Part shown: positions 43,991-57,621 of the stretch, one piece after another | Layout: every line of letters begins with the position of its first letter | How positions within the stretch are numbered: position 1 is the first letter of the stretch | Source: an uncultured Bacteroidia bacterium | GTDB taxonomy: Bacteria > Bacteroidota > Bacteroidia > Bacteroidales > UBA932 | Assembly: GCA_902768985.1 (NCBI GenBank) | Contig: CACXNA010000002.1 | Span: forward strand, 62,001-126,000 | Length of the DNA stretch: 64,000 nt | Direction of reading: 5' to 3' | Made by a program: the position numbers and the translations under genes | The notes under the pieces: generated by a model | The model's input: only the letters and a program-made list of their open reading frames with translations | What the model was told of the DNA's origin: nothing | The model's database searches: none

Positions 43991-45220
43991 ATGATTATGA
44001 AGAGATTCAGCATCCTCGCCCTCCTCGTCTGCGCACTGTCGCTCAACGCCTGCGCCCAGTGGTATCTGTTCCCCGGCAAGAAGAAACAGGCCGACACCAC
44101 CAAGGTGGATTCCATGCGGAACTACCGCCCGGACAGCGTGTCGAAGCAAGCCACGACGGCTCCGATCGACAGCGTTCTGACGGAGGAAACGCCCGCGGTG
44201 GACAGTCCGTACGTGCTGGATATGCCGGGCGTGATCCGCATCGGCCTCGTCCTGCCGCTGCAGGCTTCCACCCAGAAGCCCAGCGAGAACTTCCTGGATT
44301 TCTACAGCGGTGCCCTGCTGGCGCTGCGCGAAATGGGCGCGGCCGGCCTGAAGGCCGACCTGCAGGTCTATGATTCCGCCGACAGCAAGACCACCGTCCC
44401 GCAATCGCTCATCGACGAGAGCGACGTCATCATCGGTCCGGTCTCTTATGAAGAACTGGAAAGCGCCGCCGCCCTGTGCAACGGCAAGGTGCTGATCTCA
44501 CCGCTGGAGCCCAAGGCCGCCGCGCTGGCCGCCGCCGGCGCCGTGGTGCAGGCGCCGTCCGGCTGGAGCGCCCAGGTGGACGAGCTGGTCCAGTGGGTGC
44601 GCGAGGAGCTCCCGGTCGGCGAAGTTCTCTATGTCATCCAGGACACCACCGCCCTGACGCCGGGCGGGCAGAGCGCCTACCTGCTCGAGCGGCTGCAAGC
44701 GCGCGGCGTCCGCTACCGGAGCGTGGCCTCCGTGGAGGAGCTTCCCCTTGAGAGCAAGCAGAAAATCCGCGTGACGGTGGCCTCCGAGCAGGACAGCTTC
44801 ATCACCGCCACGGTCCGCGGCCTCGGCATCGAGGGTGCGCGCGGCGGCAACATCATCTTCTACGGCACGGCCCGCATGCGCACCAACGGCATCGCCCAGA
44901 CCGACCTCCACAACATGGAGGCCCGCATGGTGCTGTCCTACTTCATCGATTACGACGATCCGGCCGTCCGCAACTTCGTGCTGACCTACCGCTCGCTCTT
45001 CCAGGGCGAGCCCGGCTCCTTCGCCTTCCAGGGCTACGACACCACGCACTACTTCGTCACGATGTGCGCCAAATACGGCCGCCAGTGGTACAAGAAGCTC
45101 GACGAGTACGTCGAGAAAGGACTGCAGGCGGACTTCCGCTTCCGCGAAGAGCCCGCCCGCGTCAATCAGGCTGCGCGCCGTGTCGTCTATCGTTCTGACC
45201 TGACGACGGAGCGGCGCTAA
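43991..45220 (+). CDS. Lipoprotein with a type I periplasmic-binding-protein fold
   Basis: The signal peptide ends in the lipobox SLNAC (Cys21), giving a lipid-anchored protein of 409 codons; a second ATG at 43997 (MKRFSIL) could be the true start. After a low-complexity linker (KKKQADTTKVDS...), residues 80-385 start VIRIGLVLPLQAS and continue FYSGALLALREM, SDVIIGPVSYEELESAAALCNGKVLISPL, like Leu/Ile/Val-binding or LpoA-type domains. No ABC permease genes are near, so a structural or regulatory envelope role is as likely as transport. Its stop codon overlaps that of the convergent NRPS-like gene. Confidence 0.8.
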   Translation: MIMKRFSILALLVCALSLNACAQWYLFPGKKKQADTTKVDSMRNYRPDSVSKQATTAPIDSVLTEETPAVDSPYVLDMPGVIRIGLVLPLQASTQKPSENFLDFYSGALLALREMGAAGLKADLQVYDSADSKTTVPQSLIDESDVIIGPVSYEELESAAALCNGKVLISPLEPKAAALAAAGAVVQAPSGWSAQVDELVQWVREELPVGEVLYVIQDTTALTPGGQSAYLLERLQARGVRYRSVASVEELPLESKQKIRVTVASEQDSFITATVRGLGIEGARGGNIIFYGTARMRTNGIAQTDLHNMEARMVLSYFIDYDDPAVRNFVLTYRSLFQGEPGSFAFQGYDTTHYFVTMCAKYGRQWYKKLDEYVEKGLQADFRFREEPARVNQAARRVVYRSDLTTERR

Positions 45221-47655
45221 ACGTTTTTCAGGAAATAATCCACGAGGATATTCTTGCTCTCCCGCGTGATCAGGAACCCGTTGTGGTCCGTGGGGTGCTG
45301 GATGACTTCGCAGTCGGGATAGCGGTTCTTCCAGCGCTGCTCGTTGGTGAAGAACTCCTCCTTCTCCAGCCGCTTCATCTCGGGCGTCTTCTCGATACCC
45401 GTGTTGACGGCGCTTCCCTCCGTGTAGATGCTTGAGATGATGGAGGTGACGCGGCCGTTGTAGGTTTCCTCCGGCATCGTGGCCATCAGGTTGATGTCCA
45501 GATCCGTACGGGCCATGTTGCGCTCTTCGTTGTAGAAGGGGAAGAAGTACAGCCTGCGCAGCTTGTACTGCAGGCTGATGTCGCGGTCCAGCTCGCCGTC
45601 CAGGACAACCACGTGCGGCTTCTTCGCCTTGTCGTTATACAGGCGCGCGGCCAGGGCGAGCGCCTGCTCGCCGCCGGCGCAGAAGCCGGTGATCGCCACG
45701 ACGTTACGCGTCTCGACGACGTCCTTGACCAGCTTGACATATTCGTCCACCAAGCCGTTCACGTCCGTCAGCCGGTCCTCCATGATGGTATGGTAGGACT
45801 CGAGGGCGAAGATGGCGAACTTGTGGGAAATCCGCTCGGCCCATTCGCCGAAGATAAAGGAGAAGCTGGTGAAGCCGCTGATCACGATGATCACGGGCTT
45901 GTCCGTGTCCTTCCCGGGATCACCGTACCAGAACGCATTGGGATGCTTCTCCGCGGCCATGACCTTGCGGATGGTCCGCAGGGTATAAAAGTCGTTGGCA
46001 GTCAGATGAATGCCAGACATGCCCATCTGGACGGTCAGCTGCATGACGTGCAGCGAAGTGATGCCCAGATCATTGAAAAGATCCGCCTCGACGTTGACGC
46101 TGGGCAGGCCGAGCATCGTGGCCGTGGCCTGCATGAGCAGTTCCTCATTCGGCGTCAGCGGCGTATCGTTCCGGGTGACCGGATCCAGCGCCCTGTTCAC
46201 GAGCGTGGTCTTGTCGATCTTGCCGTTGATGTTCAGCTTGAAGTCCTCGACCTGGTTCCAGTAGGTCGGCATCATATAGTCAGGCAGTTGCTTGGCGACA
46301 TTCTTCTTGATCTCATCCAGGCTGTCGATCCCTTCGGCGGTCCGGACATAGGCCACGATGTATTTCTCGGTCCCGATGTCCTCCAGGCGCACGAAGGCCC
46401 GCAGCACGCCTTCCTGGCGCTCGATCTGCGTGCAGATCTCGCCCAGTTCGATGCGGTAGCCGTGGAGCTTGATCTGCGAGTCCATGCGGCCAATGTAGTT
46501 GAAGCTGCCGTCCTCGTTGAGCGTCACCAGGTCGCCGCTGTGGTAGAGGCGGGAAACGTCGATGCCGTCATGCTCCTTCTCGTAGGGATTGTCGAAGAAC
46601 ATCCTGGCGTTCAGGTCGGGGCGGTTCCAGTAGCCGTTGGTCAGCTGCATGCCGCCGATGAGCAGTTCTCCCTGCTCCCCCGGGGCAACCAGCTTCCCGT
46701 TCGCGTCCGCGACGTAGCATACGACGCCGGGGACGGCCTTGCCGATGTTGCGCCAGTCATCCGGGCCCTCGATCTCGTGGGTCGTGGTCACGATGCTCTC
46801 CGTCGGGCCGTAGCCGTTGACGAAGCGATAAGGATACTTCCCGGCGATCTTGCTGGTGAGGCTGTGCGGGATGGCTTCGCCGCCGGCGGACAGGGTGTCC
46901 ATGGCGGGGAAATCGTAGTCCGGAAAGACGGCCAGCAGGGACGGCGGCATGAAGGTGTAGGTAATCCCCTTCTCCTTCATGAGTTTGTACACCAGCAGCG
47001 GGTCGTGCTTCTCCTCCGCCTGGACAATCACCAGGGTACCGCCGTAGTAGAGCGAGGAGAAGATCTCCAGGACGGAGACGTCGAAGTTGATGCTGGCGAA
47101 CTGGAGGACGACGGACTTGTCGCTGATATTGAAATTGTCCGGCAGGCAGACGGTCTGCATGTAGCTGTACAGGGTCCGGTACGGCTGTGAAACGCCCTTA
47201 GGCTGGCCGGTGGTGCCGGATGTATAGATCATATAAGCCTCGGAGACCGTGCCGCTCAGCACGGGCAGCTTCTCCAGCAGCGGGCTGGCGAGCAGTTCCT
47301 GAAGGTTATCTTTGGTGATCAGGATGCCCAGGGAGGCGTCCTGGCAGATGAAATCCCGGCGGTCCGCCGGCGTCTCCACGTCGATGGGGACATACGAGCA
47401 TCCCAGTTTCACGGCAGCCAGGATGCAGGGCACATAGTCCTCGTCCCGGGCCAGCGAGATGCCGATGCGGAAGGGGACGTCCCCGATGGCCTTGTCACCG
47501 GCCTTCCGCGCCACGCCGGAGGCGATATGGCAGGCCATCTCATCCATCTGGGCATAAGAGACCTCCCGGTCGCCAATGCTGTAGGCGGTCTTGTCCTTGT
47601 ACTTTTCTATAATTGACTGGATCCGCTCCGCAAATTTCTCGTAATAGAAGTCCAT
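45217..47655 (-). CDS. Free-standing NRPS-like enzyme: adenylation-carrier-thioesterase
   Basis: The 812-residue protein has an adenylation domain (about 1-500), a carrier domain (about 510-585) and a thioesterase-like domain (about 595-812). Adenylation motifs: AYMIYTSGTTGQPKGV, FDVSVLEI, GYGPTES, LYHSGDL, MDSQIKLHGYRIELGEI, LNINGKIDK (catalytic Lys). The carrier Ser is Ser534 in DLGITSLHVMQL. The TE motif is GFCAGG with Cys659 instead of Ser, followed by VVLDGELD and a late HPTDHNG. FDVS keeps the Asp that binds an alpha-amino group. There is no condensation or reductase domain. The substrate is not identifiable; A-T-TE proteins can dimerise or release a single acid. It is last in the signalling operon, 41 bases after the TonB receptor; TATATTTA (47673-47680) is one base from a -7 element. 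Confidence 0.88.
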   Translation of the reverse strand: MDFYYEKFAERIQSIIEKYKDKTAYSIGDREVSYAQMDEMACHIASGVARKAGDKAIGDVPFRIGISLARDEDYVPCILAAVKLGCSYVPIDVETPADRRDFICQDASLGILITKDNLQELLASPLLEKLPVLSGTVSEAYMIYTSGTTGQPKGVSQPYRTLYSYMQTVCLPDNFNISDKSVVLQFASINFDVSVLEIFSSLYYGGTLVIVQAEEKHDPLLVYKLMKEKGITYTFMPPSLLAVFPDYDFPAMDTLSAGGEAIPHSLTSKIAGKYPYRFVNGYGPTESIVTTTHEIEGPDDWRNIGKAVPGVVCYVADANGKLVAPGEQGELLIGGMQLTNGYWNRPDLNARMFFDNPYEKEHDGIDVSRLYHSGDLVTLNEDGSFNYIGRMDSQIKLHGYRIELGEICTQIERQEGVLRAFVRLEDIGTEKYIVAYVRTAEGIDSLDEIKKNVAKQLPDYMMPTYWNQVEDFKLNINGKIDKTTLVNRALDPVTRNDTPLTPNEELLMQATATMLGLPSVNVEADLFNDLGITSLHVMQLTVQMGMSGIHLTANDFYTLRTIRKVMAAEKHPNAFWYGDPGKDTDKPVIIVISGFTSFSFIFGEWAERISHKFAIFALESYHTIMEDRLTDVNGLVDEYVKLVKDVVETRNVVAITGFCAGGEQALALAARLYNDKAKKPHVVVLDGELDRDISLQYKLRRLYFFPFYNEERNMARTDLDINLMATMPEETYNGRVTSIISSIYTEGSAVNTGIEKTPEMKRLEKEEFFTNEQRWKNRYPDCEVIQHPTDHNGFLITRESKNILVDYFLKNV

Positions 47656-47696
47656 TCTTTCAGACTGTTTGGTAAATATACTTTGGGGTAGTGCAC

Positions 47697-50048
47697 TCAG
47701 ATTTTCAGCCGGATATGGCCCAGCAGCCAGAGGCCGGCCTGCCGCATCGGTGCCACGCTCGAGCCACCCTGCTGGTAGTTCGTATTGGCGACGTTGTAGG
47801 CGTTCAGCCCGAATTCCAGTTTCCAGACCGCATAGCTGATACCGGCGTCGACAATCACGCGGGCGGGAATGTCGATATCCAGGGGATCCATACCGGGCAA
47901 CGAGTACAGCGACTTCTGGGACGATACGAAGTTGGCGTGCGCCTGCAGCTTCAGCCCGGACAGGATCTCATACGACGCCGACAGGTTGGCCTGGACGTCC
48001 GGAATATTGTAGACGCTGTGGTTGAAAACCGTGAAGTTCTGGGAATTCAACACGCGCTGCCAGGTGAGGTTGCCGTCCACCCGGAAGCGGGACGCGGCGT
48101 AGCCGAGGGCCAGCTCCACGCCGGCGTTGGTGAGGCTACCGGCATTGGTGTTTCCCGTTTCACTCTGGATGATGAACTGGTCGGCCCTGTTCACGAAGCC
48201 GCTCAGTTCAAGCTTCAGGCCGGGCACCAGCTTGCCGTCGCTGTAGAAAGACAGCTGCCAGGAATTCAGGTATTCGGGCGAGAGGTTATCGTCGCCGAAA
48301 TTAATGTCCAGGGTGTTGTTGCGATAGAAATACGGAGCGTCCACGAAAGCCTTGGAGTAGCTCAGCTTGGCACTCCACTTGGGGCGGGAGTAGATCAAGG
48401 CGATACGGGGCGAGAACACGTGCAGGCGCTTGCCCGTCGAACGCAGCTTGAAGTCGTAGCGCAGGCCGGCGTTGAGCACCAGCCCCGCGCCGAAGGAATG
48501 CTTGAGCTGGACATAAGCGTCCGAGCTCGTCTCCCGGCCCGTATTCAGCACCTTGAGGTCGTTGTAGGTCTTCAGGATGAGGTCGTAATTGATACCTTCC
48601 AGATAGCTGGCGTCAGCCAGGTTGAAGCGGTTGAAATGGCCGCCGAGCATCATGACGCCCGACTGCGACTTGCCGAACGAATAATTGTAGCTCATCTGCG
48701 CCGCTGCGCCCAGCGTGTATTCGTTCCAGTTCACGCTTTGGAACACGTCGTCATAGAGCTTGAGGACGATCCCCTCTGTGCCGTTGGGGGTCACGTCGTT
48801 GGCGCCCACCTCGGGGATGTCGCCGTCAATCTGGTAGCGTTGCTGATGCTGCGAGTCGAAGTTGGCGGTAATCTGCCAGGAGAAATTGCCGTGGCTGTCG
48901 GCATAGCCCAGCTCGGCGTGCTGCGAAGAGATGGCGTAGCCGGGAGCGTAGCCGTCAAGCAGACGGTATTTGTCGTATTCGTAGGGCGTAAAGAAGTAGC
49001 TGAGCGACATCGGCGCCACCGTCTTGGCGAAGCGGCGGTTGTAGAGCAGGTGCAACTTGTCCCACTTGAGCGACAGACCGAAGTCATAGGAAGGGGCACG
49101 GTTGTACCCGCCAATGATCATGTCGCCGTCCATGGGGACCACCGCATACGGCTGGTCATCCCAGTTGCCGGCGTAGTGAACCTTCTGACCGTCAGCGTTG
49201 TAAATGCTGGCCCAGGCCAGGATGTCCAGCGAGAGGAAGTGCTTGCCGAAGAGCAGGTCGCCGCGGACCTGTCCGTAATTGCCCCCGCTCGCCTTCAGCT
49301 CGAAGCCGTCCACGTCGGAGCCCCCCTTGGTAATGATGTTGACCACACCCGTCAAGGCGACGCCGCCGTACAGGGAGGACGCCGGGCCCCGCAGCACCTC
49401 GATCTGCTTGACCTTCTCCAGGCTGATCGAATAATCCGGGCTGGCCGTGTTGGTGGAATAACTGTTCAGCCGGTGGCCGTTCAACATGATGAGGATCTTC
49501 TCCTGGCCGGACGAGTAGATGCCGCGCATAGCCACGTTCATCTCCTCGTTGCTGGCAATGTCCGTCATGCCGGGGACGTAGGCCACCAGGGCGTCTTTCA
49601 GGGTCCGGGCACCGATGCTTCGGAGCATGTCTTCCGTGATGAGCGTCACGGGGACCGGCGCCTCCTCGATGGACTCCGCCTGCTGGGAAGCCGTCGTAAT
49701 CGTGGCCGTCTTGCCGGCGCGCAGGCGGTTCACCATCTCGGTGAAGCGCGGCACGTCGTTGTACACCCGGTAGTAGGGATCGACGGCCAGCAGTTTCGCC
49801 ACCCATTCCTCGGCCACGGCGGGCTTGTCCATATTCAGGTTGCACAGGGCCAGCAGGCGGTACACGCCGATCCGGCTCTCCCCGTGGAAGCTGTTCACGG
49901 ACCGGGTCAGGAGCGTGTCCGCTTTCTCAAAGAGACCCAGCTCGTAAGCTTCCTGGGCGGATTCGAACAGATGCGAATCATCCTGCGCACGGACGGCCCA
50001 TGAGCAGCACACGAGGAAAAATGCGATGATGTAGCTCTTGATGCTCAT
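47697..50048 (-). CDS. TonB-dependent outer-membrane receptor with N-terminal TPR-like domain
   Basis: The 783-residue protein has a signal peptide (MSIKSYIIAFFLVCCSWAVRAQ), a helical repeat domain (about 25-110: LFESAQEAYELGLFEKADTLLTRSVNSF..., TPR-like), a plug (about 125-240: VTLITEDMLRSIGARTLKDALVAYVPGM, IEVLRGPASSLYGGVALTGVVNIITK) and a 22-strand-type barrel ending GLWLLGHIRLKI. There is no SusD partner, so this is not a glycan-utilisation SusCD pair. Plug and barrel resemble siderophore/colicin-type receptors. It overlaps the upstream kinase stop by 4 bases and precedes the NRPS-like gene, suggesting uptake or sensing of the product of this operon. Confidence 0.9.
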   Translation of the reverse strand: MSIKSYIIAFFLVCCSWAVRAQDDSHLFESAQEAYELGLFEKADTLLTRSVNSFHGESRIGVYRLLALCNLNMDKPAVAEEWVAKLLAVDPYYRVYNDVPRFTEMVNRLRAGKTATITTASQQAESIEEAPVPVTLITEDMLRSIGARTLKDALVAYVPGMTDIASNEEMNVAMRGIYSSGQEKILIMLNGHRLNSYSTNTASPDYSISLEKVKQIEVLRGPASSLYGGVALTGVVNIITKGGSDVDGFELKASGGNYGQVRGDLLFGKHFLSLDILAWASIYNADGQKVHYAGNWDDQPYAVVPMDGDMIIGGYNRAPSYDFGLSLKWDKLHLLYNRRFAKTVAPMSLSYFFTPYEYDKYRLLDGYAPGYAISSQHAELGYADSHGNFSWQITANFDSQHQQRYQIDGDIPEVGANDVTPNGTEGIVLKLYDDVFQSVNWNEYTLGAAAQMSYNYSFGKSQSGVMMLGGHFNRFNLADASYLEGINYDLILKTYNDLKVLNTGRETSSDAYVQLKHSFGAGLVLNAGLRYDFKLRSTGKRLHVFSPRIALIYSRPKWSAKLSYSKAFVDAPYFYRNNTLDINFGDDNLSPEYLNSWQLSFYSDGKLVPGLKLELSGFVNRADQFIIQSETGNTNAGSLTNAGVELALGYAASRFRVDGNLTWQRVLNSQNFTVFNHSVYNIPDVQANLSASYEILSGLKLQAHANFVSSQKSLYSLPGMDPLDIDIPARVIVDAGISYAVWKLEFGLNAYNVANTNYQQGGSSVAPMRQAGLWLLGHIRLKI

Positions 50049-50905
50049 TTTACGATCTTGGCAGGAATGATAAAGGTAAACGTAGAGCCGACCTTCGGCT
50101 CCGTTTCCACCAGCAGCTGGCCGCCGTGGTTCTTGGTAATGACATCGTAGGTGATACCCATGCCCAGGCCCGTACCCTGACCGGCCGGCTTGGTGGTGAA
50201 GAAATTCTCAAAGATCTTGGCCTTGACCTCGGGGGTCATGCCCATGCCGTTGTCCGTGATGTCAATGCGGATCTCCGCCTCGCCGGCGCCTTTGTCGGTC
50301 TGGGCGACCTTCACCGTGATGGTCGGCACGTAGTCGGGACCTTCCTGGCCGGCGCGCTCCTTGACCGTGTAGCAGGCGTTGTTCATGACGTTGAGCACGG
50401 CCCGGCTGAGGTCCTGCGGGATCACCATGACCTTGGGCAGGTTCTCCGGGATCTCCTCCCGGATGGTGATGTTGAAGCTCTTGTCGTTGGCGCGCATGGC
50501 ATGGTAGCTGAGCCAGACATATTCATGCACGAGCTGGCCCACGTCGGTGGGCAGCTTCTCACCGGCCTTGCCGCGGCTCTGCAGCAGGATGCCGCGGATG
50601 ATGCTGATGGCCCGCTCGCCGTGTTCCTGGATTTTCTGGAGATTGTCGGCCAGATCCGCCGAGATGTCTTTCATGTCGGCGGCGTCGTCCTCGCCCAGTT
50701 TGTCCGCGCAGTCGTTCACGATCTCCTGCAAGTCGTCCAGCAATTTGACGGACATCTTGCTGAAATTGATCACGAAGTTCAGCGGGTTCTGGATTTCATG
50801 GGCAATGCCTGCGCTGAGCAGGCCCAGGGAAGCCATCTTCTCCTGCCTGTTCAACTGCTCCTGCAAATAGGTCACCTTTTGTTTCAGACCTTCCAGTTCT
50901 TCCAT
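50045..50905 (-). CDS. Soluble sensor histidine kinase core
   Basis: The 286-residue protein starts with a short coiled coil (LEGLKQKVTYLQEQLNRQEKMASLGLLSAG), then the phosphoacceptor box GIAHEIQNPLNFV with His36, and a HATPase domain (about 150-283) with N-box NVMNNACYTVKE, G1 DNGMGM, F-box FFTTKPAGQGTGLGMGI. There is no membrane segment or input domain. Beside it (upstream in the operon) is a large sensor whose own phosphoacceptor is Asp, so I infer that this kinase provides the His in a mixed complex. It is 12 bases after that gene and overlaps the TonB receptor gene by 4. Confidence 0.92.
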   Translation of the reverse strand: MEELEGLKQKVTYLQEQLNRQEKMASLGLLSAGIAHEIQNPLNFVINFSKMSVKLLDDLQEIVNDCADKLGEDDAADMKDISADLADNLQKIQEHGERAISIIRGILLQSRGKAGEKLPTDVGQLVHEYVWLSYHAMRANDKSFNITIREEIPENLPKVMVIPQDLSRAVLNVMNNACYTVKERAGQEGPDYVPTITVKVAQTDKGAGEAEIRIDITDNGMGMTPEVKAKIFENFFTTKPAGQGTGLGMGITYDVITKNHGGQLLVETEPKVGSTFTFIIPAKIVK

Positions 50906-50917
50906 AAGACTTTATTC

Positions 50918-53497
50918 TTAAGCCAAATTAATGACGAATTCCGTATACTCATCCTTCACGGACTGCACCGACAGGGTGCCGCCGCAGTCGTGCAGGACCT
51001 GCTGGCTGAGGTAGAGGCCCACGCCCGGCGCTTCGGCCGTCGGCTTGGTGGTGAAGAAGGGATCGAAGATCTTGCTGATGATCCCCTCCTCGATGCCAAT
51101 GCCGTTGTCGTAGACCTTGATGACGACGCCCACGCCTTCCTTCGCCACGGTGACGCGGAGGACCGGGCTGTAGCTCCCGCCCGCCTTCTCCGCCTTTTTC
51201 TTGATGGCGTACAGGCTGTTGGACAGCATCGACATGATGGACTTGCCGATCTGGTCGGCCACGACGTCCCGCATGACGGGCGCCTCCGGCCGGATGCATT
51301 CCACCTGGATGCCCAGCGCGGAGATGTCCGCGGCAGCGTAGGTCTTGAATCTCTCGACGCTCTGCTGACACAGCAGGGCGAGGTCGGTGGCCTCGAACTT
51401 CAGGGAGCGCTCCTTGAGCAGCTCCTCCATCGCCTTGAGCGTACGCGTGGTGGAGAGTCCGTGCTGCTCGATCTTCTCGAGGTTCGTGTTCATCATGTCC
51501 ATGATGTCCTGGGAATCCTCGTAGATATCCTCGGGAATGTTTTCTTTCACATCCTCAATGTTCCCCTTCATGTCCTTCGTCAGGCCGAGGGTCAGGTGCG
51601 CGAAGTTGTTGATGTAGTTCATCGGATTGAGGATGCGGTCGATGAGACCCTTGGTCAGCTTACCGATGGCCGCCTCCCGCTCCTGGCGCAGGAGTTTGTC
51701 CTGGGCCTGGCGCAGCTCCCGGGTCCGCTCGTCGACGATGGTCTCCAGGCGCTGCTGCTCCGCGGCCATGCGGCGCATGCGGTACTTGAAGATCTGATAG
51801 ACCAGGTAAACGATGAGCAGCAGGTACACCAGCAGCGCATACCAGCGCACGAAGATCGGATACGGCCGCCGGAATTCGAGCGGGCCGATCTCGCTCAGCT
51901 GCCCGAAGGCGTCCATCGAACGGACGGACACCTGGTAGGTGCCGTAGCTGAGGTTGGCGAACAGGTGCTCCTGCTGGTCGCTCCAGTCGGACCAGGCGTT
52001 ATCCTGACGCAGGCGGTAGCTGTAGCGCGCCTGCCCGAAGGGGTCGATCTTGTCGTTGGAGAAGCTGATGGACAGGTCGCTGCTGGTCTTCTTGAAACTG
52101 CGGAAATACAGCAGCGGCGCGAAGCGCTCCGTCGTCCGGCACTGGGCCATATTGAAGCGGACCAGGCCGTCGTTGTCGCCGATCCAGACCAGGCCCCTGT
52201 CGACCAGCATGGCCTGGATGCTGTAGCCGGAGAACGGCTCGATCCAGGCTTCCAGCTCGGCCGGCATGCCCTCGTAGCTGATGCCCAGGCCGTTGTCGTG
52301 GCTGCGCCACAGATTCCCGTCGCGGTCCTCGTATTCGAACAACTGCGAGAACGGGCCGTCCTGGCGTTTCTCGAAGGACGTGCTGCCGGCTGCAAGGTAG
52401 TAATAGTCGCCCGCCAGGGTCATCGCCCAGACGCCGCCGCGCTCATCCTGCTTGAAACGGGTGATATTGGGGATCTCGCCAACGGTCGAAACGCCCTTTC
52501 CGGGGCGGAAACGGCTCACACGCTCCAGTTCGCCGAACAGGTAGGAGCCGTCGGCGAGTGCCGTGATGGACAGGGCGAACTGGTTGGAGATCTGGCGCGT
52601 CGCGCCGCCGGCGTATTCATAGACGCCGTCCGACGTAGCCACGTAGATACGTCCGCTGCCCACCTGGGCGATCTGCCAGCAGGCGTGGCTGATCTGCGCC
52701 ACCGGGACGAAACGCTGTCCCACCAGGCGGTACAGGCCCTGGAAGGTGCCCACCATCAGGTCGGAGCCGCACAGGGCGATGCAGGAGATCTGCCCCCGCA
52801 GGCCTTCCTTCTCCGTGAAATGGGTATAGATTTCGGTCACCGAGAGGCTGAAGACGCCGTTGTCCGTCGCCCCCCAGACCGTTCCCTTGCCGTCGTAGGC
52901 AAGCTTGGTGATACTGTTGGAGCAGAGCCCGTTGGCGACGTTGACCCGCCACACTTCCCGGCCCTGCGCATCGATGGCAATCACGCCGTCGGTGGCCGTG
53001 GCCAGCAGCGTCCGGTCCCCGCCCAGCGGGAGACGCTGATAGACCTCGATGTCGTTCCAGCGGTCCACGGCGGCTTCCTGGTTGCGCTCGCCGCCGGAGA
53101 GCACCCGCTCATCGCGGGCGTCGGCGGAGGAATACGCGACGCGGATGGAATCCCCGGCCATGCCCAGGATCCGTCCCGTCTGGTTGATGCCCTCGAAACG
53201 GACCGTGCCGTCCTCCTCTATATCCACGCTCACCACGCGGGAGATGTCGGGCGTATGGACAATCCGCCATTTGACGTTGTCGAAGACCAGCAGACCCTCG
53301 AAGTTCGCGAAGAAAGTATGCCCCTCACCGTCGCAGATTACGTCGAAGTTGCGGTTATGGGCATTGTAGAGGCTGGCCGGATAGTTCCTGAAGAACGGGA
53401 CGCCCATGTAGGCGTTGGCGCCGCTCTGCGCGACGGCCGGCACCGCGAAGAGCAACGCGGCGACCGTCAGCACGATATGATACGCTAACCTTCTCAT
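50918..53497 (-). CDS. Propeller/Y_Y_Y transmembrane sensor with a pseudo-histidine-kinase domain
   Basis: From the ATG at 53497 (4-base overlap with the previous stop) the protein has 859 residues. Signal peptide MRRLAYHIVLTVAALLFAVPAVAQ; a periplasmic beta-propeller (about 30-465); a Y_Y_Y-like domain (YSYRLRQDNAWSDWSDQQEHLFANLSYGTYQVSVRSMDAFG, about 480-545); one membrane helix (WYALLVYLLLIVYLVYQIFKY); a coiled coil; then a kinase-like part. The usual HExxNP box reads IDRILNPMNYI, with Asp620 in place of the phosphoacceptor His. The HATPase domain is complete (NSLYAIKK, DNGIGI, FFTTKPTAEAPGVGLYLSQ). I infer a pseudokinase that senses ligand and controls a partner kinase, most simply the adjacent soluble one. 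Confidence 0.88.
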   Translation of the reverse strand: MRRLAYHIVLTVAALLFAVPAVAQSGANAYMGVPFFRNYPASLYNAHNRNFDVICDGEGHTFFANFEGLLVFDNVKWRIVHTPDISRVVSVDIEEDGTVRFEGINQTGRILGMAGDSIRVAYSSADARDERVLSGGERNQEAAVDRWNDIEVYQRLPLGGDRTLLATATDGVIAIDAQGREVWRVNVANGLCSNSITKLAYDGKGTVWGATDNGVFSLSVTEIYTHFTEKEGLRGQISCIALCGSDLMVGTFQGLYRLVGQRFVPVAQISHACWQIAQVGSGRIYVATSDGVYEYAGGATRQISNQFALSITALADGSYLFGELERVSRFRPGKGVSTVGEIPNITRFKQDERGGVWAMTLAGDYYYLAAGSTSFEKRQDGPFSQLFEYEDRDGNLWRSHDNGLGISYEGMPAELEAWIEPFSGYSIQAMLVDRGLVWIGDNDGLVRFNMAQCRTTERFAPLLYFRSFKKTSSDLSISFSNDKIDPFGQARYSYRLRQDNAWSDWSDQQEHLFANLSYGTYQVSVRSMDAFGQLSEIGPLEFRRPYPIFVRWYALLVYLLLIVYLVYQIFKYRMRRMAAEQQRLETIVDERTRELRQAQDKLLRQEREAAIGKLTKGLIDRILNPMNYINNFAHLTLGLTKDMKGNIEDVKENIPEDIYEDSQDIMDMMNTNLEKIEQHGLSTTRTLKAMEELLKERSLKFEATDLALLCQQSVERFKTYAAADISALGIQVECIRPEAPVMRDVVADQIGKSIMSMLSNSLYAIKKKAEKAGGSYSPVLRVTVAKEGVGVVIKVYDNGIGIEEGIISKIFDPFFTTKPTAEAPGVGLYLSQQVLHDCGGTLSVQSVKDEYTEFVINLA

Positions 53498-55152
53498 TTG
53501 AACGTCATATACGGGATGGACACGCCGACGTAACGGGTCCATTCCTGTTGGGTCAGATTACGCTTGAATTTCCGCCGGAGCTGCTGCGCCATGTCGTCGG
53601 CCGAAGAATTCAGCAGCATGACGTTGCCGGCGGAAGTGCCGATCCACACGGACTTCCCGTCGGCGTCGGCGCACACGGCCAGCGTCCACCCGTCGAACGA
53701 ATAATCCACGGGCACCAGCCACTCCGTCGGAATCTCCCCGCTGTTCACCACGCGCTTCTCCACATGCTCCGTCTCCAACTCCTCCCGGAAGTTCAGGCCG
53801 GTTTCGAACAGCAGGTTGTCCATATTCCAGATAAAGGCAGTCTTGTCATAACCGCCGGTGACGACGACCGGGTCGAGCATCGTGATGCTCACGCAGCGCG
53901 ACTTGTGGGCCGCGAGCGTCTCCAGCACGCGGTTGTATTTGTTGACCGGATAGACCGTGCCGTCCTTCACGCCCAGCAGCAGGCACTCGGTGGACGGGTC
54001 ATAGCAGGCGGCGGTGACCACGTAGTTCACCAGCGGCGCCTTGGCCGTAATCCGGCCCGCGGCGTCCATCTCGGCATACGAGCCGTCCGCGTAGAAGAGG
54101 CAGATGACACCGGCCCGGTCGACGACCGCCGACAGGGACTTGTCCAGGGCCACGCGGCCCGTCAGGGCGCCGTCCGCATACCAGCCCAGGCTCCGCCGGG
54201 CAGCCACGAGCAGGCGGTTCCCGCTCGGCACCAGCTTGAAGTAATCATCTTCGGGCAGGTCCACGGCCGTCAGCCTGCCCTGGAAGTCCAGCACGCACAG
54301 GGGGCCGTTGTGCGACAGCGCAAGGATCTTCCCGTCCCGGACCGTCACGTCCCGGAAATCGTAAGCAGGATCGAACAGCAACGGCTTGGAGCTGATCCTG
54401 GCGCCGCCTTCGCTGCTGCCGGCGCTCAGCCATTCCACTTCGCCGTAATTGGATACGGCCACGCACTGGCCATTCTGGCCGGGCACCTGCGCGATGGCGT
54501 TCACGGCGCCGCCTTCGCGGAGCTTGTAGCGCGGCATGCCGCCGGTGGCCTGGGTCAGGGACTTGAAGGTATCGGCGTAGTATTCGTTACCCCGGTTGTT
54601 CTTGAGGAAATACCAACTGGCGTAGGCCAGCAGGTCGGCCACTTCCGGCTCTCCGGCTTCCCGCCGGACCTGGGAGCTCACGGCCAGGCTCCGGGCCTGG
54701 GTGCGGCGGTTCAGCGTGTCTGCCACATTCTTGGCATGGTTGGCCTCATCTCTCTGCTCCAGCGCGATTTCCTGCTGCCGCTCGGCGTTGGCCCGCTCCC
54801 GCTCGGCCACCTCGGCGGCGGCGTTCGCCTTGCTCTCGGCGGCACGCGCGGCGCGGCTCTCCATCTCGGCGCGCGCGGCGCTCCGGGTAGCCAGGATGGA
54901 CTGCTCCTCGGCGCGGTCGCGCTGCTGGTCGGAGATCGCCTTCTGCTGATAGGCGATATCCTCCATCTGCTGGCTGACGCGCTTCACGATGGCCGCGTCC
55001 TTCTCGGCAGCCACCAGGCGTTCCATCTCTTCCTGCAGGGCGGCCAGTTCCTTCTGGGACTTTCTGCTGCCCGCGTGGTATGCGACCGCAGCCACACCGG
55101 CCAGGACCGCCAGTGCCGTCAGCGCATACAATAGGAGGGTGCGAGGTTTCAC
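53494..55152 (-). CDS. Membrane-anchored coiled-coil and WD40-like propeller protein
   Basis: The 552-residue protein has a membrane helix (about 7-27), an Ala/Glu/Arg-rich coiled coil (about 30-150), a helical segment (QARSLAVSSQVRREAGEPEVADLLAYASWYFLK) and a propeller (about 195-525; SRCVSITMLDPVVVTGGYDKTAFIWNMD is a clear WD40 blade). The end, FKRNLTQQEWTRYVGVSIPY, matches the LTxxEWxxYxG tail of WD40 signalling proteins. The propeller would lie either in periplasm or cytoplasm; the N-terminal helix with MKPR before it favours cytosol-in/periplasm-out. It overlaps both neighbours by 4 bases and is likely a scaffold or sensor for the REC-PP2C regulator upstream. Confidence 0.83.
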   Translation of the reverse strand: MKPRTLLLYALTALAVLAGVAAVAYHAGSRKSQKELAALQEEMERLVAAEKDAAIVKRVSQQMEDIAYQQKAISDQQRDRAEEQSILATRSAARAEMESRAARAAESKANAAAEVAERERANAERQQEIALEQRDEANHAKNVADTLNRRTQARSLAVSSQVRREAGEPEVADLLAYASWYFLKNNRGNEYYADTFKSLTQATGGMPRYKLREGGAVNAIAQVPGQNGQCVAVSNYGEVEWLSAGSSEGGARISSKPLLFDPAYDFRDVTVRDGKILALSHNGPLCVLDFQGRLTAVDLPEDDYFKLVPSGNRLLVAARRSLGWYADGALTGRVALDKSLSAVVDRAGVICLFYADGSYAEMDAAGRITAKAPLVNYVVTAACYDPSTECLLLGVKDGTVYPVNKYNRVLETLAAHKSRCVSITMLDPVVVTGGYDKTAFIWNMDNLLFETGLNFREELETEHVEKRVVNSGEIPTEWLVPVDYSFDGWTLAVCADADGKSVWIGTSAGNVMLLNSSADDMAQQLRRKFKRNLTQQEWTRYVGVSIPYMTFK

Positions 55153-56312
55153 TTTCTGCGAATTACTAATTGCGTAATGTCATCACTCTGGGGTGCGCCG
55201 TCGGCGAATTCCCGGACCTTGGTCAGGACCGTCTCGACGATCTGCTTGCTGGGAGCGCCCTGCAGCGCGGCCAGCTCCGCCTCCAGGCGGGACTCCCCGA
55301 ACTGGGCGTGCTCCTTGTTCTCCGCCTCGGTCACGCCGTCCGTGTACATCACGAGCGCGTCGCCGGGGTTCAGCTGCAGCGAAGACCGCTTGAACGTCAT
55401 GTCTTCCATCACGCCGAGCACCAGGTTGCCGTCGTTTTTCAGCATCTCGACGGAGCCGTCGGCATGCAGGATGTAAGGCGGGTTGTGGCCGGCGTTGGTG
55501 TAGTCGATCTGGCCGGTCTGCAGATCGTATATGCCGTAGAACACGGTCACGAACATGGAGCCGACGCTCTCGCCGCACAGGATGTTGTTGACCGTCTCCA
55601 TGCATTCGTTCGAAGCCAGGTCGCGGATGCCCGTGGCCTTGATGAGCGTGTGGCTCACCGCCATGAAGATGGCGGCCGGGACGCCCTTGCCGCTCACGTC
55701 GGCGATGGCGAACCCGATCCGATGGTCGTCGATCGGGAAGAGATCGTAGAAGTCGCCGCCCACGTCCTTGGCCGCCTCCATGCTGGCGAAGATGTCCACG
55801 GCGTCGGGGTTCGACACCTTCAGCGTGAACGAGCGCGGCAGGATGCCCTGCTGGATCTCGCGGGCCACGGAAAGGTCGCTCTGGATGTCCACCAGTTCGG
55901 CGTGCTCCTTCTGGGCGCTCTTGATGTACTCGATCTGCTCGATGGCCTTGTCAATGGTCCGCTGCAGGTCGTCCAGGTCAATCGGCTTGGTGGCGAAATC
56001 GAAGGCGCCGCTGTTCATGGCGTGGCGGATGTTGTCCATGTCTCCGTATGCGCTCACCATGATGCACTTCCGGGACGGGACACGCATCTCGTTGATCTTG
56101 GCCAGAAGCGTCAGTCCGTCCATTTCCGGCATGTTGATATCCGAAAGGATGATGGAAATGTCCGGATACTTCAGCAGGAGCTGAAGCGCCTCCAGTCCGT
56201 TGTGGGCGAAGTAGAATTCGTATTCGCCCTTTCTAATCTGTCTGCGGAAGAATTGCGTCAACAACAATTCGAGATCGGTCTCGTCGTCGACACTCAAAAT
56301 TTTAACGGCCAT
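55149..56312 (-). CDS. Response regulator with PP2C-type (RsbU/SpoIIE) phosphatase output
   Basis: The 387-residue protein has a receiver domain (about 1-125; acidic pocket VDDE, phosphoacceptor Asp58 in ILSDINMPEMDG, KPID Lys) and a coiled-coil linker followed by a PP2C-type phosphatase (about 170-385: AKDVGGDFYDLF, ADVSGKGVPAAIFMAVSHTL, GHNPPYIL, MYTDGVTEAEN, SDDITQLVI with metal Asp residues). Such proteins usually dephosphorylate an anti-sigma-antagonist (STAS) partner; no STAS or anti-sigma gene is in this window. It heads the six-gene operon. Confidence 0.93.
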   Translation of the reverse strand: MAVKILSVDDETDLELLLTQFFRRQIRKGEYEFYFAHNGLEALQLLLKYPDISIILSDINMPEMDGLTLLAKINEMRVPSRKCIMVSAYGDMDNIRHAMNSGAFDFATKPIDLDDLQRTIDKAIEQIEYIKSAQKEHAELVDIQSDLSVAREIQQGILPRSFTLKVSNPDAVDIFASMEAAKDVGGDFYDLFPIDDHRIGFAIADVSGKGVPAAIFMAVSHTLIKATGIRDLASNECMETVNNILCGESVGSMFVTVFYGIYDLQTGQIDYTNAGHNPPYILHADGSVEMLKNDGNLVLGVMEDMTFKRSSLQLNPGDALVMYTDGVTEAENKEHAQFGESRLEAELAALQGAPSKQIVETVLTKVREFADGAPQSDDITQLVIRRK

Positions 56313-56406: not shown

Positions 56407-57621
56407 ATGAAAAAGCTCTTCTCTCTTCTGACAGTGGCGGCACTGGTCGTGTCCGCCCTGTCCGCCGCCCCCGCCCGCGGGGCAGCCCCCATTAAAAATC
56501 CGGCCCCGGAAAACATCTGGGCGTTCTTCGAAGCATTGCCTGACGCGGGTCTGCCGGAAGACATCAACACGCGCGCCAAGCGCGAAGGCTTCCACAAGGA
56601 TTACGAGGAGAAGCTCCTCGAGATAGAGGCAGCCCAGGCAGAAGCCTCCGAGGACGGCGAAGAGTACTACGACGACGCTGTGTACCTTTCCCCGATCGAG
56701 TATTCGATCTTCTGGGATCCCACCGCGCTGGAGCCCTACTGGATCAGCCAGGATTATGTAGAATCCGAAGGTTCGCTCCCGGCCATCTCCCTGGCTACGT
56801 TCCAGGGATCCGACCCGGACCGGATTTTCGGCATTCTCCGCATCCTGGAGACCCACTTTGAAGAGTCCACCACCGTCAAGGCCACGCAATACTACTGGTA
56901 TTCCGTGTCGAAAAAGACGGTGACGCCCACCCAGCTCCCCCTCGATGTGCCTTATACCGATGACGACATCACGGACGACGGTCTGTACTACTACAACACG
57001 AACGAGCTCTATTGGGCCATGCGCGACCATCATCTCGACTGGGATATTGACTCGAACCGCATCACCCTCAACCTGGACAGAATCGGCAACGTGCCGGTCC
57101 GCTACAACTGGAACGGGACGAAATTCATCCGCGACCGCTACTACAGCCCGCTGGGGATCTACTCCAACGGCATCGGCAACATCCAGTTCGGAGAGAGCGT
57201 CGTCACGTACGGCGTCCACGGCTATGATATTGAATGGATCAACATTGACGAAGAGTACACCCGCGCCTGGCGTTATACCAAGGAAGGCGAGGATACGCAG
57301 CGCATGATTGTCTACGCCTATGGCAACGGCGTCGCGACCACGGACGCCATCGACGTCTACTATCCGGGCTACAAGCTCTTCGACTCCATCTACGCCGGCA
57401 TGCCGGCCGCCGAGGCCATCGAGGCCATCAAAGCCTGGTATAGCTGGGAGGATCCGGAAGCGCGCGATCCGTACGTGAGCGCCTTCGACGGCAAGGCCTG
57501 GATCTTCACAGGCCGTGACGACCCCTTCATGCTGGCCGTGGACCTCAAGTACTTCAAGAACGACAAGCTGACCCCGGACGCCGTGATCGAATTCATCCGC
57601 ATCGCCCCGGCAGTCGGTTAA
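56407..57621 (+). CDS. Secreted protein of unknown function, divergent to the signalling operon
   Basis: No family recognised. The 404-residue product has a signal peptide (MKKLFSLLTVAALVVSALSAAPARGA), then an acidic, Tyr/Trp-rich mature protein (EDGEEYYDDAVYLSPIEYSIFWDP, YYWYSVSKKTV, YYYNTNELYWAMRDHHLDWDID). No Cys appears in the mature part and there is no lipobox, so it is periplasmic or exported. The divergent promoter arrangement suggests, but does not show, shared control with the REC-PP2C operon. Confidence 0.75.
   Translation: MKKLFSLLTVAALVVSALSAAPARGAAPIKNPAPENIWAFFEALPDAGLPEDINTRAKREGFHKDYEEKLLEIEAAQAEASEDGEEYYDDAVYLSPIEYSIFWDPTALEPYWISQDYVESEGSLPAISLATFQGSDPDRIFGILRILETHFEESTTVKATQYYWYSVSKKTVTPTQLPLDVPYTDDDITDDGLYYYNTNELYWAMRDHHLDWDIDSNRITLNLDRIGNVPVRYNWNGTKFIRDRYYSPLGIYSNGIGNIQFGESVVTYGVHGYDIEWINIDEEYTRAWRYTKEGEDTQRMIVYAYGNGVATTDAIDVYYPGYKLFDSIYAGMPAAEAIEAIKAWYSWEDPEARDPYVSAFDGKAWIFTGRDDPFMLAVDLKYFKNDKLTPDAVIEFIRIAPAVG

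Follow-up and report, generated by a model that had tools for sequence, protein, structure and literature searches.

A conserved six-gene operon of rumen Bacteroidales appears to join a one-module synthetase to a matching TonB-dependent receptor and a kinase/PP2C relay

Introduction

Partner switching by PP2C phosphatases, STAS proteins and RsbW-type kinases is known from RsbU-RsbV-RsbW, from RssB-type regulators joining a receiver domain to PP2C (REC-PP2C) and from SiaABC, and a pseudo-histidine-kinase working with a true kinase is known from DivL-CckA. In TonB surface signalling (FecA/FecR/FecI, FpvA, HasR, PupB), the receptor has an extra periplasmic N-terminal domain and the signal crosses to an inner-membrane protein, as the consulted part of PMC9249621 describes. 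Synthetase and receptor co-evolve in the lock-key pairs of Pseudomonas pyoverdines (PMC11734721, in the part consulted), and characterised non-reducing fungal enzymes with the domain order adenylation, thiolation, thioesterase (A-T-TE) use aromatic keto acids (PMC9047271, likewise). Described here is an operon in a stretch of 64,000 nucleotides (the window; contig CACXNA010000002.1, positions 62,001 to 126,000 of the forward strand) from an uncultured Bacteroidia bacterium of the Bacteroidales lineage UBA932. Its six genes seem to produce a small molecule, bind it through a matching outer-membrane receptor and inform regulatory machinery.

The source assembly (GCA_902768985.1) comprises 2.35 Mb in 28 contigs and is 95% complete. 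A preliminary description of the locus, made from the sequence alone, had named no described system with this gene set. Full-text literature searches, including the host group and judged by title and start of abstract, likewise found no published description, and by these searches the system is undescribed. In the consulted text of a study of rumen gene clusters (PMC8241843), no TonB or receptor is mentioned.

Gene order and conservation of the operon

The six genes occupy positions 45217-56312 on the minus strand, with 4-base overlaps at the PP2C/WD40, WD40/propeller and histidine kinase (HK)/receptor junctions and gaps of 12 and 41 bases at the other two. This layout, already given in the preliminary description, is confirmed by the open reading frame (ORF) coordinates. 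The genes are as follows (TM, transmembrane helix; aa, amino acids).

55149..56312, minus strand: gene 1, REC-PP2C response regulator/phosphatase, 387 aa (Pfam Response_reg 6e-21, SpoIIE 4e-53)
53494..55152, minus strand: gene 2, one-TM coiled-coil/WD40 protein, 552 aa, predicted with the N-terminus inside and the WD40 part periplasmic (single hydrophobic helix at residues 6-24)
50918..53497, minus strand: gene 3, propeller/Y_Y_Y pseudo-histidine-kinase, 859 aa, with signal peptide, periplasmic propeller and Y_Y_Y, one TM and a cytosolic kinase-like part (by Pfam, topology prediction and the H-box GLIDRILNPMNYI)
50045..50905, minus strand: gene 4, soluble HK, 286 aa, H-box intact (HisKA, HATPase_c; no TM)
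47697..50048, minus strand: gene 5, TonB-dependent receptor, 783 aa, with signal peptide, TPR-like N-terminal domain (weak), plug (3e-18) and barrel (2e-28)
45217..47655, minus strand: gene 6, stand-alone A-T-TE synthetase, 812 aa (AMP-binding 8e-58, PP-binding 4e-07, Thioesterase 0.0014, below cut-off)

The propeller gene is read from an ATG at 53497 that overlaps the preceding stop, giving 859 aa; the ORF list puts its start at 53542. The coiled-coil/WD40 gene starts with GTG. Pfam cut-offs are passed by SpoIIE, Response_reg, HATPase_c, HisKA, Plug, the barrel, AMP-binding and PP-binding, and Y_Y_Y (25.8 bits, cut-off 26.6), Thioesterase (19.3, 26.4) and WD40 (21.6, 27) fall below them.

The six genes form a real, conserved unit. 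They stand in one order in 13 loci, namely the window, L062-L068, L071, L072, L074, L097 (genome G225) and L128 (genome G529, with the synthetase incomplete at the contig end), and a further locus, L132, holds the last four genes with the propeller gene cut. At least six types of flank were distinguished (window/L062/L064; L065/L074/L123; L068/L071/L072/L126; L066/L067; L063; L097), and the conserved synteny of a six-gene system is thereby supported. With start codons chosen nearest to those of the window, the 4-base overlaps are kept in relatives at the PP2C/WD40 (15/15), WD40/propeller (15/16) and HK/receptor (16/17) junctions. The receptor gene lies directly upstream of the synthetase gene in all 17 synthetase-bearing loci (L069 and L070 come from the same assembly, on separate contigs), and the gap between the two genes measures 5-26 bases across 16 relatives. 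Visual inspection of the 130 bases ahead of gene 1 at 16 loci showed no shared promoter motif; only same-flank kin were similar. Gene calls in some loci (e.g., L065, L071, L140, and L201) rest on tblastn.

When the synthetase was searched against the genome_contigs collection, 14 loci matched. Thirteen come from Bacteroidales/Bacteroidia, at 66-93% identity over the whole protein; the 14th, from Virgibacillus, is an unrelated A domain at 23% identity. Five of the 13 titles name a ruminant (yak, red deer, goat, sheep, and dairy cattle), five carry the label RUG, which we take to be rumen uncultured genome, and three are without a host. The complete six-gene order is present in 10 of these 13 loci, and L069, L070, and L073 end at contig boundaries. 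Among 61 genomes of the window's genus, the synthetase search gave 13 matches, full-length only in the window and G225. Family-wide, 24 of 199 genomes matched at E <= 1e-40, window included; the others were judged non-orthologues, none of them spanning the TE, in frames of 505 to 3477 codons.

The propeller protein was found in 14 of 400 genomes of the window's genus, window included. The sixth slot is readable in 12 of them and holds the synthetase in 11 and an alpha-L-rhamnosidase in one (L131); L123 and L126 end earlier. Locus and genome counts are not independent, because seven of the 14 genus genomes are seven of the 13 synthetase loci (by shared 200-base words). The carriers found form a narrow Bacteroidales group.

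In 199 genomes of the family, the propeller search gave 20 matches, of which only that in G027 (L098), from another genus, extended beyond the kinase part; L098 has the five-gene core without a synthetase. Within another family of the order, the WD40 protein was present in 4 of 18 genomes, all four with REC-PP2C, WD40, propeller, HK, and receptor in order. A second receptor stands in tandem in L201 and L202. L189, from a different family of the phylum, carries WD40, receptor, an acetyltransferase-like gene, propeller pseudokinase, HK, REC-PP2C, and an RsbW-like gene. A WD40 profile gave 4 matches in 335 phylum genomes, window included. Because a synthetase-less five-gene core occurs in another genus and another family, the signalling half is, judged by gene content, a wider Bacteroidota module and the synthetase a clade-specific addition. 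Absence of the synthetase from most relatives, which the preliminary description had named as evidence against its reading, is seen among distant relatives and not among close ones, where 11 of 12 readable loci have the gene.

Several neighbours were recorded in these loci. The exporter genes of L098 (365-9142) comprise a C39-peptidase ABC exporter, a second ABC protein, two HlyD-type genes, an OEP gene, and a VKOR/thioredoxin-like gene; they run divergently to the five-gene core at a distance of 81 bases and possibly form an exported-peptide cluster beside this synthetase-less receptor core. One row in L202 (2085-18994) contains STAS, RsbW-like, and DJ-1-like genes, the core of five genes, an ATPase-like gene, and another receptor of this kind. 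In the window, a Peripla_BP_6-like gene (43991-45220) is convergent with the synthetase gene, overlapping it tail to tail by 4 bases, and a divergent gene of 404 aa (56407-57621) has no Pfam or NCBIfam match at E 0.01. Among the 13 loci found with the synthetase, both neighbours are kept only in L062 and L064.

Co-variation of synthetase and receptor

Four segments of the receptor and synthetase are referred to below.

49299..49991, minus strand: receptor residues 20-250 (TPR-like domain and plug), not tracking the synthetase (no correlation with the A domain)
48339..49058, minus strand: receptor residues 331-570 (mid-barrel), with the strongest tracking of the A domain (partial Mantel r 0.92, p 0.001 at the permutation floor, n = 11 loci; segment picked post hoc)
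46636..47235, minus strand: A-domain core of the synthetase, residues 141-340, with code DVLFSGGVTK, its final Lys outside the stretch (positions set by motif anchors)
45220..45933, minus strand: TE-like domain with Cys nucleophile motif GFCAGGEQ (Cys/Asp/His conserved; weak match to the Dieckmann cyclase NcmC)

The synthetase appears, from patterns of divergence, matched to the receptor. In the variant loci L097 and L132, the synthetase is about 41% identical and has a different code. Their receptor residues 61-140 stay within five points of within-clade identity. In the barrel (261-780), most windows fall to 31-48% and 541-600 to 60-66%, compared with 65-87% within the clade. In the ratio of L097-to-group over within-group distance, the four signalling proteins stood at 1.01-1.11, receptor residues 20-245 at 1.81, the barrel at 2.43, and the synthetase at 2.31. 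In partial agreement, trees of the four signalling proteins place L097 inside the main group or without a resolved position within it, and L097/L132 have long branches for receptor and synthetase (1.94 and 1.48 changes per column, respectively).

Co-variation within the main clade was measured over 11 loci by partial correlation, with signalling-gene divergence regressed out. The whole barrel (255-783) correlated with the A domain at a partial r of 0.79 (p 0.0002, the floor of 5000 permutations), and receptor residues 20-245 gave r 0.00 with the synthetase (p 0.48). Successive receptor windows from residue 331 to 720 reached r values of 0.77, 0.87, 0.70, 0.56, and 0.33 with the A domain; nothing was found before residue 331, and 721-783 gave 0.12. 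Eight control segments of other genes, in 16 tests, produced no p below 0.06. The mid-barrel value remained at 0.87-0.94 when any one locus was dropped and at 0.91 with one locus per close cluster. We read the synthetase product and the receptor barrel as lock and key, and the earlier proposal that both share one small molecule gains indirect support from the joint divergence in the variant and the co-variation in the main clade.

As for the enzyme itself, the A and T domains are both over the Pfam cut-off, and the T-domain Ser is present in 16 of 16 readable rows. Besides the window code, the A-domain codes DVIFSGGVTK, DALFSGGVIK, DALFSGGVVK, DALFSGAVMK, DVLLAGAVAK, DVLFCGGISK, and DVIFCGCISK were found, the last two (L097 and L132) being alignment-dependent at positions 8 and 9. 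Asp occupies code position 1 in all 17 rows. Since an Asp there marks an amino acid rather than a keto acid, the code suggests an amino acid as substrate, though it matches no particular one. In all 16 readable rows, the TE-like domain has a Cys in the nucleophile place, accompanied by Asp and His; the three are invariant in the 14 rows of alignment A1. Compared with solved structures, the only TE match at E 0.01 was NcmC (E = 0.0065 over 41 residues), no more than a lead, by which ring formation is conceivable. The window's genome has one PPTase-family gene, a frame of 247 codons.

The receptor is over the Pfam cut-off for both plug and barrel, and its closest solved sequences are Cir, then BtuB. 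The STN signalling domain gave no match in the whole receptor at E 0.01 or in the N-terminal fragment at E 1.

Signalling proteins and their output

The propeller protein has Asp in place of the H-box His, followed by Arg (GLIDRILNPMNYI, compared with AGIAHEIQNPLNFV in the kinase). This Asp is present in all 22 aligned rows, including the propeller-less short form of another genus (L099-L102), which upholds the earlier reading as a pseudokinase. An Asp-type pseudokinase was also found in 11 distant loci (L173, L174, L176, L177, L178, L181, L184, L189, L200, L201, and L202); a His-bearing kinase directly adjoins it in nine, and none was seen in the L178 and L181 stretches. By analogy with known pseudokinase/kinase pairs, we infer that the membrane pseudokinase steers the soluble HK in a hetero-complex.

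In all 22 aligned rows the HK keeps its H-box His, and in all 20 of its own the REC-PP2C keeps its receiver Asp, as in a two-component pair by sequence. The Asp motifs of the SpoIIE/PP2C domain are kept in the same 20 rows.

In L097, a membrane PP2C (dCache sensor, C-terminal RsbW-like HATPase_c_2) is followed by a STAS gene and, after 15 bases, by REC-PP2C. Between L097 and the window's genome, only L097 has its STAS gene in one row with REC-PP2C. Relatives of the L097 PP2C-RsbW/STAS pair (56 and 68% identity) lie on another contig of the window's genome, the STAS gene (C1:87149-87436) adjoining the relative of the PP2C/RsbW fusion; that genome has five PP2C proteins in all. Separate RsbW-like genes come after REC-PP2C in L104 and L107 (Pfam). 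BLAST with the L097 proteins placed STAS and RsbW-like genes at the head of the row in L174 and L176 and close by in L175 and L202; in L173 and L189 it showed an RsbW-like gene near REC-PP2C. Because STAS/RsbW genes neighbour this kinase/PP2C type in relatives, the output of the operon is probably STAS partner switching.

In L190 and L191, relatives of the WD40 protein have about 490-500 residues ahead of the equivalent helix, identified in L190 as an nSTAND1 NTPase by Pfam. If the NTPase is cytosolic, the WD40 part would be periplasmic, as the propeller domain and the receptor N-terminal domain are by prediction; the three may contact one another. The nSTAND1-TM-coil-WD40 protein (in L191 by BLAST and length) adjoins a receptor that matches the N-terminal part and plug of the window receptor (L190:5748-11449; L191:6373-12161); there, input from the same receptor type may reach an NTPase rather than kinases. 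nSTAND conflict systems are the subject of PMC7159879, of which part was consulted. Three distant genomes encode membrane proteins of about 1000 aa close to receptor or propeller-kinase genes (L191:2328-5489, L183:13231-16230, L184:12836-15976); they are alike in length and N-terminal look, with HEAT repeats in that of L191, the only one scanned.

Discussion

The proposed chain begins with the A-T-TE enzyme, which would load one, probably hydrophobic, amino acid, its Cys-type TE releasing a small product. The receptor barrel would recognise this product, or a complex of it, and the TPR-like domain and plug would relay binding to the periplasmic WD40/propeller assembly. That assembly would switch the membrane pseudokinase, which would control the neighbouring soluble HK; the HK would phosphorylate REC-PP2C, whose phosphatase would dephosphorylate a STAS protein and so move an RsbW-type kinase partner. 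The product, its binding, the direction of phospho-flow, STAS as the substrate, and the periplasmic contacts are what we infer here, and the chain leading from product to STAS is hypothetical, though its anatomical support is good. That the whole is a surface signalling system carrying its own ligand synthetase strikes us as an evenly balanced proposition. The wider claim would be of a distinct Bacteroidota class of outer-membrane-to-cytoplasm signalling (TPR-like TonB receptor, membrane WD40 protein, propeller pseudokinase/kinase, REC-PP2C, and STAS switching), in which a ruminant-associated clade captured a one-module synthetase that co-diversifies with the receptor as self-recognition or a private signal. 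It is held tentatively, at somewhat short of even.

A number of observations weigh against this proposal. The propeller protein is missing at E 1e-50 from 386 of the 400 genus genomes, and no synthetase relative accompanies the core in the stretches read of L098, L173, L189, L200, L201, and L202. Neither STAS nor RsbW is in the window operon, so that the partner switching claimed in the preliminary description is favoured by neighbours in relatives and not by the operon itself. No exporter is among the six genes. L103, L175, L180, and L182 have REC-PP2C with a His-type sensor kinase and no pseudokinase. The TE call is weak (Thioesterase below the Pfam cut-off in the window protein, no match at E 0.01 in that of L097). 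Likewise, the TPR-TonB receptor first described stands in its plug and barrel, and its TPR part is only suggested, as TPR_2 on the N-terminal fragment stays below cut-off (E = 0.014 in the window, 0.0021 in L097). In L097 and L132, the plug (about 141-240) also lies 6-24 points below within-clade identity. The 11 loci of the correlation are few and include close kin (window/L062/L064 and L066/L067), p values of the window tests (2000 permutations, 33 receptor tests) are uncorrected, and segment 331-570 was picked after the window results. Finally, since the TE too correlates with the barrel (r 0.42, p 0.004; r 0.60 for receptor residues 571-650), the signal does not belong to the A domain alone.

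The synthetase-receptor match could also be that of a metallophore or scavenging system, in which the product binds a metal or another nutrient, the receptor imports it, and the signalling genes only adjust expression to supply. This is unlikely: regulation by PP2C and two kinases is unusual for such systems, no inner-membrane importer or reductase is among the six genes, and one A-T-TE with one amino acid yields no obvious iron ligand. In its favour, most solved relatives of the receptor are siderophore, B12, and haem receptors, and synthetase-receptor co-evolution is documented for pyoverdines in the consulted part of PMC11734721.

Co-variation of neighbouring genes could instead reflect recombination hitch-hiking, which would make it linkage and uninformative on function. 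The receptor and synthetase genes are indeed adjacent, and A-core segments look recombined, that of L063 having apparently been exchanged (52-78% identity to the window in most windows over residues 141-340, 95-98% over 341-440). Plain linkage is nevertheless disfavoured, and in its simple form was rejected, because the correlation is absent at 721-783, the receptor end nearest the synthetase, and present at 331-570, opposite to what a gradient of linkage would give. In the variant, moreover, the steep drop in identity starts after the plug. Hitch-hiking is considered quite improbable.

Slightly less probable again is a nutrient-responsive operon: the receptor would detect a compound from the surroundings, and the A-T-TE would either modify it after import or form some unrelated product in response. 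Glycans are frequent ligands of Bacteroidota propeller/Y_Y_Y sensors, and in L131 (5178-7769) the synthetase slot is taken by the alpha-L-rhamnosidase, which overlaps the receptor gene by one base and has, by eye, a lipoprotein-like signal peptide. By itself, however, such an operon does not predict co-variation of A domain and barrel. A serpin gene stands after the rhamnosidase on the opposite strand. Chance clustering is rejected because the same order recurs in 13 loci with six or more flanks.

If the proposed self-made-ligand system is real, it joins specialised-metabolite synthesis, TonB-dependent import, and partner switching, which are usually studied apart, and its presence would point to private small-molecule signals in rumen Bacteroidales. 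The correlation of barrel and A domain singles out a receptor segment, and the eight A-domain codes are natural variants for work on ligand specificity.

Comparison with known systems

So far as the consulted parts of the sources cited at the outset describe them, TonB surface signalling systems resemble the operon in that the window receptor, too, has a predicted extra N-terminal periplasmic domain. Unlike receptors of the FecA kind, it has a TPR-like domain instead of an STN match, and a WD40 protein, pseudokinase, kinase, and REC-PP2C replace FecR and the ECF sigma factor. A scan of the six genes and four neighbouring ones, which did not extend to the rest of the genome, turned up no FecR-type anti-sigma or ECF sigma gene. 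If true, this would be a second wiring of TonB surface signalling beside the ECF-sigma wiring. As in the pyoverdine pairs, to the same extent of the source, synthetase and receptor distances correlate (11 loci); here, a single A-T-TE stands in place of a multimodular line, and kinases and a PP2C are encoded in the operon of the receptor.

The A-T-TE order without a condensation domain is that of fungal quinone/furanone synthetases, from which the window enzyme differs by the Cys in its TE and by an Asp at code position 1, which the keto-acid code lacks. The REC-PP2C architecture is that of partner-switching systems, with RssB of Pseudomonas as best NCBIfam match (below cut-off) and STAS/RsbW-like neighbours in relatives, whereas the input is here proposed to come from an outer-membrane receptor through a pseudokinase/kinase pair. 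Compared with DivL-CckA, that pair has Asp rather than Tyr in place of His, is encoded by adjacent genes, and carries a propeller sensor on its pseudokinase.

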